64,000 bases of DNA from assembly GCA_018970885.1 (NCBI GenBank), contig JAGWVL010000002.1, forward strand, positions 1 to 64,000, written 5' to 3'. Shown here in pieces: positions 36,568 to 53,819 of this stretch (within the stretch, counting starts at the first letter, position 1; every line of letters begins with the position of its first letter). Under the pieces are notes generated by a model. That model had not been told where the DNA came from. It made no database searches and worked only from the letters and a program-made list of their open reading frames with translations. Position numbers and translations under genes: made by a program. The DNA is from Actinomycetales bacterium (lineage in GTDB: Bacteria > Actinomycetota > Actinomycetes > Nanopelagicales > Nanopelagicaceae).

Positions 36568-37755
36568 TTACTTTGCTCCCTTGAAGTGAGGGTTTTCCCA
36601 GATAACAGTTCCACCCATGCCTAAACCGATACACATTGTTGTAATTCCATAACGCACCTCTGGGTGTGCTTCGAAGGTGCGAGCAAGGTTGAGTATTAAA
36701 CGAACACCTGATGATGCAAGTGGGTGACCGACAGCAATTGCACCGCCATATGGATTTACTCGAGGATCATCATCGGCAATTCCAAAGTGATCTAAGAAGG
36801 CAATTACTTGAACAGCAAAAGCTTCATTGATTTCAAAGGCACCGATGTCTTCGATGGTTAGGCCTGCCTGCTTAAGCGCTTTAATAGTTGATGGCACTGG
36901 TCCATAGCCCATGATCTCTGGCTCAACACCAGCAAAGGCGTAGGTAACCAGCTTTGCCTTAATTGATAATCCAAGTTCAAGGGCTTTTTCTTCACTAGCT
37001 AGCAACGCAGCTGTTGCACCATCATTGAGACCAGATGAGTTTCCTGGTGTCACGCGACCTGCGGGACGAAATGGAGTCTTCAGCCCTGCAAGTCCCTCCA
37101 TCGTTGTCTGTGGGCGAGGTGCTTCATCAGCTGTAGCAACTGTCCAACCAAGCTCTGCACTACGTGCTGCAGTTGGAATTAAATCTCTTTGAATCTTTCC
37201 ATCTGCATATGCCTTGGCAGTTTTAAGTTGCGAATTCATCGCGTAACGATCTGCGCGCTCTTTAGTTAACTGTGGAAAGCGATCATGTAGCCGCTCTGCT
37301 GTTGCTCCCATTGCAAGAGCATCCTGTTCAACGATCCGCTCTGCTAAGTACCGTGGATTTGGATCCATACCTTCACCCATTGGATGGTTGCCCATATGTT
37401 CAACACCACCGGCAATAGCGATCTCATTTGTACCCATTGCAATCGCACCTGCAATGGTTGTAACGGCAGTTAGTGCACCTGCGCACCAACGATCAATTGA
37501 ATAACCCGGAACGGTGTTGGGTAAACCTGATAACAAAGCTGCGCTGCGTCCAATGTTCATTCCCTGATCACCGGTTTGTGTTGCAGCAGCGATGGCAACA
37601 TCTTCTATAGCGGTGGGATCAATTGCAGGATTTCGTTCTAAGAGACCACGAATTGCGCGGACCATCAAATCATCTGCACGGGTTCCGGCGTAAATGCCGC
37701 CAGCCTTTCCAAATGGGGTACGAACAGCATCAACGAGAACTACGGTGCGAGACAT
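36568..37755 (-). CDS. fadA: Acetyl-CoA acyltransferase (thiolase)
   Basis: VVLVDAVRTPFGKAGG; IDRWCAGALTAV; NPYGGAIAVGHPLASSGVR; CIGLGMGG. Confidence 0.95.
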   Translation of the reverse strand: MSRTVVLVDAVRTPFGKAGGIYAGTRADDLMVRAIRGLLERNPAIDPTAIEDVAIAAATQTGDQGMNIGRSAALLSGLPNTVPGYSIDRWCAGALTAVTTIAGAIAMGTNEIAIAGGVEHMGNHPMGEGMDPNPRYLAERIVEQDALAMGATAERLHDRFPQLTKERADRYAMNSQLKTAKAYADGKIQRDLIPTAARSAELGWTVATADEAPRPQTTMEGLAGLKTPFRPAGRVTPGNSSGLNDGATAALLASEEKALELGLSIKAKLVTYAFAGVEPEIMGYGPVPSTIKALKQAGLTIEDIGAFEINEAFAVQVIAFLDHFGIADDDPRVNPYGGAIAVGHPLASSGVRLILNLARTFEAHPEVRYGITTMCIGLGMGGTVIWENPHFKGAK

Positions 37756-37786
37756 GGTTCATCCTTTGTTAGGTATGAGCCAAATG

Positions 37787-37800
37787 TTACTCGCGAGTAA
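37787..37800. promoter_or_regulatory. 14-bp perfect palindrome upstream of fadA (putative operator)
   Basis: TTACTCGCGAGTAA, 32-45 bp upstream of the fadA start. Confidence 0.6.
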
Positions 37801-37820
37801 GGGTTTGTAACAGTACCTAC

Positions 37821-38633
37821 TTACGCCTTCGCTGTGACCTTCGGCTTAGCTAGATAAGGGACCAAAACCGCACCGAGGTAGAGAACCCAGACTCCAAGTT
37901 GCAGCCATGAGGTTGTCGTGTCAAAGCCAATAGTTCCTGAGAGCGAGGCACCGAGGATTGAATCCTTGGCGATAAATGAGGTCACATCCCACACGTAGGC
38001 ATCAGGACCTGGCAGGTAGCCCAGCTCTTGGAACTCATGGATACCGTAGGACAAAACTCCTGCTGCAACGATGATCAATGCAACACCTGAGTACTGGAAA
38101 AACTTTGCAAGGTTGAGCTTGATTGCACTCTTATAGATCAAGAATCCGAGGGTAATTGACACTGCAAAGCCCAACACGAGGCCGGCTGTAGGGCTAGCGA
38201 CATCTTGGACAGTTTGGAAGTTTGTATACACAAATAAAGAGGTTTCTAGACCTTCACGGATAACTGCGAAAAATGCAGCAGCTGCGATTGCGATAGGTCC
38301 AACTGTTGCCGCCGCTTCAACCTTTCCTTCTAGCTCACCCTTTAAGTGACGAGCTGTGCGCTTCATCCAGAAAACCATCCATGTCACCAAGGCGACTGCG
38401 ATAAATGAGGTCACACCAGCAAATAGCTCCTGGCCGCGCTCGCTCAAAGAGACAGAGGTCAAGGTCAGGAATGCACCTAATGCGATGCTGGCAATCACCG
38501 CAATAGCCACACCGCTCCATAGTGGCTTTAAATACCCGTGGCGCTTTGTCTTGACGATATACGCAACGAGAATTCCAACGATTAAAGCCGCCTCTAGGCC
38601 TTCGCGTAGGGCGATGATGAAGGTACTTAGCAT
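37821..38633 (-). CDS. efeU: FTR1-family iron permease (EfeU-like)
   Basis: Two REGLE motifs: ALREGLEAALIVGI and VIREGLETSLFVY; multi-TM; start ATG 38633. Confidence 0.9.
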   Translation of the reverse strand: MLSTFIIALREGLEAALIVGILVAYIVKTKRHGYLKPLWSGVAIAVIASIALGAFLTLTSVSLSERGQELFAGVTSFIAVALVTWMVFWMKRTARHLKGELEGKVEAAATVGPIAIAAAAFFAVIREGLETSLFVYTNFQTVQDVASPTAGLVLGFAVSITLGFLIYKSAIKLNLAKFFQYSGVALIIVAAGVLSYGIHEFQELGYLPGPDAYVWDVTSFIAKDSILGASLSGTIGFDTTTSWLQLGVWVLYLGAVLVPYLAKPKVTAKA

Positions 38634-38658
38634 GAGAGAAAATCTAGGGGGTGTTTGG

Positions 38659-38688
38659 GAATTACGCAACTCTTATGTTGCGTAATTC
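38659..38688. promoter_or_regulatory. Inverted repeat upstream of FTR1, overlapping the rnd stop codon
   Basis: GAATTACGCAAC-tcttat-GTTGCGTAATTC, 12-bp perfect arms, no U-tract on the minus strand. Confidence 0.6.
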
Positions 38689-39970
38689 AGCTCTCTTCTG
38701 GGGTGTTTTCGACCACTTCAACGGGCAGGGGTTCACGCTCAAGCAGGGCCGCCGCCAGCGCAGGAGCGACCAATTGGATCTGCCATTGGCGGGCCCCGAG
38801 CTCGGCTAGCCCCTTTTCAACCTCTGGAATCGACAAGGTTGTCGTTGCTCCGGCCGGAGGCTTCCAACACAAGCGACGAACATGTTCTGGGGTAATCAAA
38901 TTCTCAACTGGAATCTGATTTTCTTGTGCGATTGATTCAATCGCAGCACGTGCATGTGAAAGCGGTGCAAATTTTTCTGGAAACTTGTCTCGCCACAATT
39001 TAATGGGTGGCAAGGTGTCAGCGTTTGTTCGCATTGTTGGCCATTGTTCCTCGGGCATTGCAACCGCCGCTGCAATGGAATCTAACCACAGTTGAAGATT
39101 TTCCATCCATCGTGCACGAAGACCCAGAGGGCGCAAAGTTTTTTCAAACTCTTTCTTATTTGTTGGTACCGCAATTGCAAGTTCTATGATTGCAGAATCA
39201 TTCAGTAACTTTCCAGGTGCAATGTCTTGTCGTGCTGCAACCTCATCACGTGCTATCCATAATGATTTTATAACCGCTAATTGGTCTCGTCTTTTTATCT
39301 TATGCATCCCCGAGGTTCTGCGCCACGGATCTACACGAGGCGGTGGTTGGGGCGCCTTCAAAATGGATGCAAACTCTTCTAGCGCCCAGGGCAACTTTTT
39401 TGATTCTTCTAATATGGAATACATGCGATCGCGAAGGTCGATGAGCAATTCAACATCCAACGCTGCATAGGTAAGCCACTCTTGTGGCAAGGGACGGGCC
39501 GACCAATCCGCAGCGCTGTGCTCCTTGGCAAGTAAGACTCCCATTAATGATTCAAGTAATGGACCTAAGCCAACCCGCGGAAAACCTGCGATTCTGCCTG
39601 CTAATTCAGTGTCAAAGAGTCTGACCGGGTTAATTCCAAGTTCACGCAGGCAGGGTAAGTCTTGGGTGCTGGCGTGAAGAATTACCTCATCGGTATTAAG
39701 CAATGTGTTGAGCTCAGAAAACAATTGATGTCCAGGGCCAAATGGAATTGGATCAATTAAATGCAGCCCACCATCTTTTCGCTTTATCTGTATCAAATAC
39801 GCCCTTGCGCTATATCGAAAACCCGATGCACGTTCAGCATCAACAGCAAAGGGACCTGAGCCTTGAGACAAGGTTGCCAGCGACTCTTTGAATGCAGTTT
39901 CAGTATCAATGACCTGCGGTGTTCCATCTGCTGGTTGCAACAGAGGAGTAGCAACTACCTCTTCACTCAT
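38687..39970 (-). CDS. rnd: Ribonuclease D
   Basis: FAVDAERASGFRYSARAYLIQI DEDD exonuclease; LTYAALDVELLIDLRD; HRDC region. Confidence 0.92.
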   Translation of the reverse strand: MSEEVVATPLLQPADGTPQVIDTETAFKESLATLSQGSGPFAVDAERASGFRYSARAYLIQIKRKDGGLHLIDPIPFGPGHQLFSELNTLLNTDEVILHASTQDLPCLRELGINPVRLFDTELAGRIAGFPRVGLGPLLESLMGVLLAKEHSAADWSARPLPQEWLTYAALDVELLIDLRDRMYSILEESKKLPWALEEFASILKAPQPPPRVDPWRRTSGMHKIKRRDQLAVIKSLWIARDEVAARQDIAPGKLLNDSAIIELAIAVPTNKKEFEKTLRPLGLRARWMENLQLWLDSIAAAVAMPEEQWPTMRTNADTLPPIKLWRDKFPEKFAPLSHARAAIESIAQENQIPVENLITPEHVRRLCWKPPAGATTTLSIPEVEKGLAELGARQWQIQLVAPALAAALLEREPLPVEVVENTPEES

Positions 39971-53783: not shown

Positions 53784-53819
53784 AAAGCGCCCCTGGGATA
53801 AACCCAGGGGCGCTTTTTT
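53784..53819 (+). terminator. Rho-independent terminator downstream of ino1
   Basis: aaagcgcccctggg-ataaa-cccaggggcgctttttt, long GC-rich stem plus T-tract. Confidence 0.92.

Follow-up and report, generated by a model that had tools for sequence, protein, structure and literature searches.

A conserved palindrome in the FTR1 iron permease promoter of acI actinobacteria as a predicted SufR operator

Introduction

Few bacteria of fresh water are as abundant as the acI actinobacteria, and the regulation of their iron supply appears to be undescribed so far. In one such genome (a MAG that is closest, among named organisms, to 'Ca. Planktophila'/acI actinobacteria), a 30-bp palindrome lies between rnd and the gene of the high-affinity iron permease FTR1 (EfeU). 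The question that this locus raises is whether the palindrome is a chance repeat, an RNA element such as a terminator of rnd, or an operator of FTR1, and, in the last case, which protein might read it. It was analysed in a stretch of 64,000 nucleotides (hereafter, the window), in the assembly from which the window comes and in further genomes of the order.

Results

Structure and uniqueness of the palindrome

The features of the locus are as follows.

36568..37755, minus strand: acetyl-CoA acyltransferase (thiolase), downstream of FTR1
37821..38633, minus strand: presumed regulated gene, encoding the high-affinity iron permease FTR1/EfeU of 270 aa (NCBIfam NF041756 EfeU above cut-off; Pfam PF03239)
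38631..38633, minus strand: ATG start codon of FTR1, where a leaderless mRNA is predicted to begin (+1)
38641..38646, minus strand: predicted -10 element TAGATT, 17-bp spacer, 7 nt upstream of the ATG
38659..38688, no strand: 30-bp palindromic operator (predicted SufR site), GAATTACGCAAC-TCTTAT-GTTGCGTAATTC
38662..38685, no strand: conserved 24-bp core, TTACGCAAC-n6-GTTGCGTAA, which includes CAAC-N6-GTTG
38664..38669, minus strand: predicted -35 element TTGCGT within the gene-proximal arm, from an inferred promoter with conserved spacing to TAnnnT
38687..39970, minus strand: rnd (ribonuclease D), the upstream gene, its stop codon overlapped by the operator (Pfam DNA_pol_A_exo1 and HRDC)

The two arms are perfect and 12 bp long each (38659-38670 and 38677-38688), with a spacer of 6 nt, and the distal arm shares two bases with the rnd TGA (38687-38689). 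The coordinates thus confirm the palindrome, its TCTTAT spacer and its overlap of the rnd stop codon as originally predicted; only the distance from the proximal arm end to the FTR1 ATG (38633-38631, minus strand), given there as 26 bp, has to be corrected to 25 bp. Within the core, CAAC at 38667-38670 and GTTG at 38677-38680 (plus strand) form the inverted repeat of the SufR motif.

Taken by itself the palindrome is only mildly improbable, because about 0.08 inverted repeats with perfect 12-bp arms and loops of 0-20 nt are expected per 64-kb window of such composition. For the 24-bp core at up to 3 mismatches the expectation is 0.02 per window, and a scan of the 1.10-Mb assembly for the arms, as had been suggested, found the core at a single place with 3 mismatches permitted. 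Elsewhere in the window, at 53784-53816, there is a perfect 14-bp hairpin, AAAGCGCCCCTGGG-n5-CCCAGGGGCGCTTT, a possible intrinsic terminator.

Conservation across the order

Absence from relatives had been named as a result that would speak against an operator, and the search did not give that result. The core was present upstream of 67/67 acI FTR1 orthologues (60 perfect, 5 with one mismatch and 2 with two), these being the lineage loci with sufficient upstream sequence (L032-L100), and its distance to the start codon was 27-29 nt in every one. Over the whole order the core was found at up to 2 mismatches in 242/251 genomes, as compared with 14/251 for a reversed control pattern (control genomes tallied by eye). 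Because of this conservation, the palindrome is judged not to be a product of chance. At the FTR1 promoters the arms are near-invariant and the spacer bases variable, with 29 different 6-nt spacers.

Matches with 2-3 mismatches in G060, G132, G001 and others, and sites of family f17 upstream of MFS or ArsR genes, look like chance and were excluded from the counts. MAG records titled 'Bifidobacterium breve' (L035-L037, L039) carry an acI-type FTR1 locus and promoter; they are probably misnamed.

Anatomy of the FTR1 promoter

A -10 element of the form TAnnnT was seen in 67/67 FTR1 promoters, separated from the -35 by 17 bp in 52 and by 18 bp in 15. In the 52 promoters with the 17-bp spacer, the start codon follows the -10 after 6 or 7 nt, and Shine-Dalgarno-like sequence is scarce (5 weak matches in the 67 promoters). 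Since the -10 stands so close to the start codon and there is little Shine-Dalgarno-like sequence, the FTR1 mRNA is probably leaderless and starts at the ATG. Counted from this inferred start site, the operator in the window spans approximately -29 to -52 and overlaps the inferred -35, which places it inside the predicted promoter. Its centre is at approximately -40.5 in the window and at about -39.5 to -41.5 across the FTR1 promoters.

DNA operator or RNA element

The palindrome might instead act as RNA, either as the terminator of rnd or as a hairpin in the FTR1 leader. It overlaps the rnd stop codon, and the folded strand gives a stable hairpin (z = -3.45). However, no U-tract follows it and no terminator-like site was found in 37500-39000, so that an intrinsic rnd terminator, made of a G+C-rich hairpin and a U-tract, was rejected. 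Nor do the arms behave as paired RNA: among 64 distinct sites no compensatory change was found, and the rare arm substitutions leave mismatched or weaker pairs (C-T, A-A, T-T, G-T); the loops vary freely. Such almost fixed arms without compensation fit a protein that would read DNA. In addition, the right arm stands at a fixed distance from the -10, outside the inferred leaderless mRNA, and the identical sequence also occurs upstream of genes that are not beside rnd. An RNA element is accordingly regarded as exceedingly improbable. Because the arms lack covariation and no U-tract lies downstream, the palindrome is read as a DNA operator and not as a terminator; the preference for an operator that had earlier been drawn from the missing U-tract stands, now with the near-invariant arms, the absence of compensatory changes and the conserved -35 overlap behind it.

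The operator at other iron importers

The same operator was found upstream of genes for FbpA-type Fe(III)-binding proteins of ABC transporters at 24/24 parsed loci; the best PDB matches of these proteins are ferric-binding proteins. In genome G002, where a search for FTR1 found none, it lies upstream of fbpA next to the same thiolase, and in one genus it lies upstream of an Nramp gene. Its occurrence at FTR1, FbpA-type and Nramp loci indicates that the predicted operator tracks iron import even when the importer gene differs.

Similar sites were seen outside the order, in two genomes from a different family (f39) of the class: an operator-like palindrome TTACGAAAC-n6-GTTGCGTAA upstream of FTR1 (L294) and another, TTATGCAAC-n6-GTTGCATAA, upstream of an FbpA-like gene (L295). 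From these palindromes, the iron regulon may not be confined to acI. In family f20 (L267-L281), a conserved related palindrome, TTACGCA[GT]C-n6-GTTGCGTAA, is located near a geranylgeranyl-reductase-like FAD oxidoreductase gene.

SufR as the candidate regulator

In cyanobacteria and S. avermitilis, CAAC-N6-GTTG has been published as the site of SufR (PMC8593673, PMC13421787, PMC11995493). At S. avermitilis sufR the -10 AACAAT is inside the repeat and the transcription start site is the last G of GTTG (PMC11995493). By pattern search, a second site, TTACGCAAC-n6-GTTGTGAAA, was found in nine other acI genera; in 5/5 of these genera whose neighbourhood was inspected, it coincides with the start of the gene heading sufR-sufB-sufD, with the GTG start codon inside the right arm. 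It is also present at sufR in Streptomyces and several other actinobacterial families, in the S. avermitilis-type layout.

SufR, a winged-helix repressor, is encoded in the assembly of the window (G000:C41:67360-68049), where its gene heads the suf operon, and it is found in 106/108 good genomes of the order. Its conserved cysteines follow the pattern C-x3-C-x12-C-x27-C, invariant in 20 sequences, with a spacing that matches C203, C216 and C244 of M. tuberculosis Rv1460 (numbering from published work). The recognition helix is similar too (TPAG[IV]RRHLD in most acI, TQAAVRRHLD in Streptomyces). NCBIfam TIGR02702 (SufR), a model named for cyanobacteria, was matched far below its cut-off. Published work on other species describes SufR as a repressor that carries a [4Fe-4S] cluster and responds to iron limitation, ROS and NO (PMC8593673, PMC13421787).

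In the genus of the window, the sufR site is altered to TTACGACAC-n6-GTTGTGAAA with minor variants, that is, to ACAC-N6-GTTG instead of CAAC-N6-GTTG; the window genome's own site is TTACGACACAATACTGTTGTGAAA. The altered site was seen in every locus with a readable promoter (L178:1450-1473, L179-L208, L305-L318), and likewise at sufR in two other genera sampled (g25, g39). As the left half-site overlaps the presumed -10, the alteration may reflect a promoter constraint or a weaker autoregulatory site; in Synechocystis there are one high- and one low-affinity SufR site. It is in the window's own genus that the proposed link between the site and autoregulation by SufR is weakest; there, owing to the altered site, the assignment to SufR rests on orthology with the genera that have both sites.

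Other iron regulators

In actinobacteria the DtxR/IdeR iron box represses iron-uptake genes under iron-replete conditions. DtxR/IdeR (PF02742) is absent from 118/121 acI genomes, including that of the window (G000), in a search whose positive controls gave matches. The three genomes that bear it belong to one genus, g31, the only such genus of the order sampled; in its FTR1 promoters (L156, L157, L137-L139) the SufR-type palindrome is joined, a short way downstream, by an IdeR-like box, TAGGTTAGGCATACCTAA, that covers the -10. Fur-family genes are present, and those examined are of two types. One is Zur-like (best solved matches 2o03 and 3mwm) and adjoins a ZIP zinc transporter gene; the other is Nur-like, with best match 3eyy, which we take to be S. 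coelicolor Nur. Rrf2 regulators (IscR/RirA) scored above cut-off in only 2/61 genomes and were rejected. Within 120 bp, the best ungapped match to the DtxR/IdeR box (TTAGGTTAGGCTAACCTAA-like 19-mer) was 9/19 and to the Fur box (GATAATGATAATCATTATC-like) 12/19, so that both candidates were dropped, in agreement with the original prediction, which had seen no resemblance to a DtxR/IdeR or classical Fur box. CRP/FNR-type N6 palindromes and Nur boxes were set aside once the sufR sites had emerged.

Could some other regulator read the sequence at sufR and at the iron importers, SufR being merely one of its targets? The divergence of the sufR and FTR1 sites in the window's genus might arise if different proteins read them. 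Against this, the published SufR motif is part of the sequence, Streptomyces has a 24-mer of the same type at sufR, and the known candidates are largely missing (DtxR, Rrf2) or, for the Fur-family proteins examined, Zur-/Nur-like. Another regulator therefore seems very unlikely. Since the core contains CAAC-N6-GTTG and co-occurs at sufR and at iron importers, and other iron repressors are scarce, we consider it highly probable that the palindrome is a SufR operator, at which holo-SufR would repress FTR1 iron import, with derepression upon cluster loss. The original prediction had named no regulator; the present comparison favours SufR, and thus a protein with a [4Fe-4S] cluster, over a simple sensor of metal ions.

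Proposed mode of action

From these comparisons we infer SufR binding, repression, the transcription start site and the signal as follows. With iron and Fe-S clusters in ample supply, a holo-SufR dimer would occupy the two TTACGCAAC half-sites, block the access of sigma to the -35 and exclude RNA polymerase. When clusters are lost through iron shortage or oxidative/nitrosative stress, apo-SufR would leave and the leaderless FTR1 mRNA would be made, so that iron import would be simultaneous with induction of the SUF assembly machinery. The FbpA-type Fe(III) ABC transporters of acI, where present, would be under the same operator.

SufR may alternatively bind and activate FTR1, by contact with sigma region 4 or with one form (apo or holo) as the activator. 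A centre near -40.5 is also a typical activator position, and TTGCGT matches the -35 consensus TTGACA poorly, a trait of promoters that depend on activators. However, the operator lies across the -35 itself and, at sufR, across the -10/+1 region, a repressor position, and the cyanobacterial and actinobacterial literature describes SufR as a repressor (PMC11995493, PMC8593673, PMC13421787). Activation is thus unlikely, and repression by holo-SufR is the reading retained.

Discussion

The SufR operators of Synechocystis and S. avermitilis (CAAC-N6-GTTG) control sufBCDS and sufRBDCSU, respectively. The predicted acI operator has in common with them the core, the 6-nt spacer and the inverted symmetry. 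It differs from them in its extended symmetric form of 24-30 bp and in its placement, not at suf alone but at the genes of an iron permease, of ABC transporters for Fe(III) and of Nramp; at FTR1 it overlaps the -35, whereas the known operators overlap the -10/+1 region. With the DtxR/IdeR box it shares no related sequence (9/19), and DtxR/IdeR is absent from the lineage except in one genus. In alphaproteobacteria, the Rrf2 proteins RirA/IscR exert Fe-S-sensing control of iron uptake. The acI system would resemble theirs in that iron import and Fe-S assembly are governed jointly by a protein that senses Fe-S clusters and not metal ions; unlike RirA/IscR, SufR belongs to an unrelated protein family, and Rrf2 proteins are largely absent in acI.

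According to a review of 2021, SufR is a dedicated regulator of the suf locus (PMC8593673). By ChIP-seq in M. tuberculosis, SufR sites were found upstream of four other genes, none of them described there as an iron importer. Full-text searches for SufR together with EfeU or with iron-uptake regulation in Planktophila returned nothing relevant, many subscription papers being outside their coverage. The operator type as such is known; what is new is its use at iron importers, in a lineage that mostly lacks DtxR.

On the sequence evidence, SufR appears to have taken over the control of iron uptake where DtxR/IdeR is missing. We lean, with moderate confidence, towards the wider view that in acI/Nanopelagicales the role of global iron regulator has passed from DtxR/IdeR (and Fur) to SufR, acting on the main iron importers (FTR1, FbpABC and Nramp) as well as SUF and tying import to Fe-S status and not to free Fe2+. 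For tests of binding, the finding narrows the choice to one candidate protein and a defined probe of 30 bp. If the proposal is true, graded sites, perfect at FTR1 and degenerate at sufR in Planktophila, would set the order of induction, and acI would offer a further independent case, besides alphaproteobacterial RirA, of an Fe-S sensor running iron uptake.
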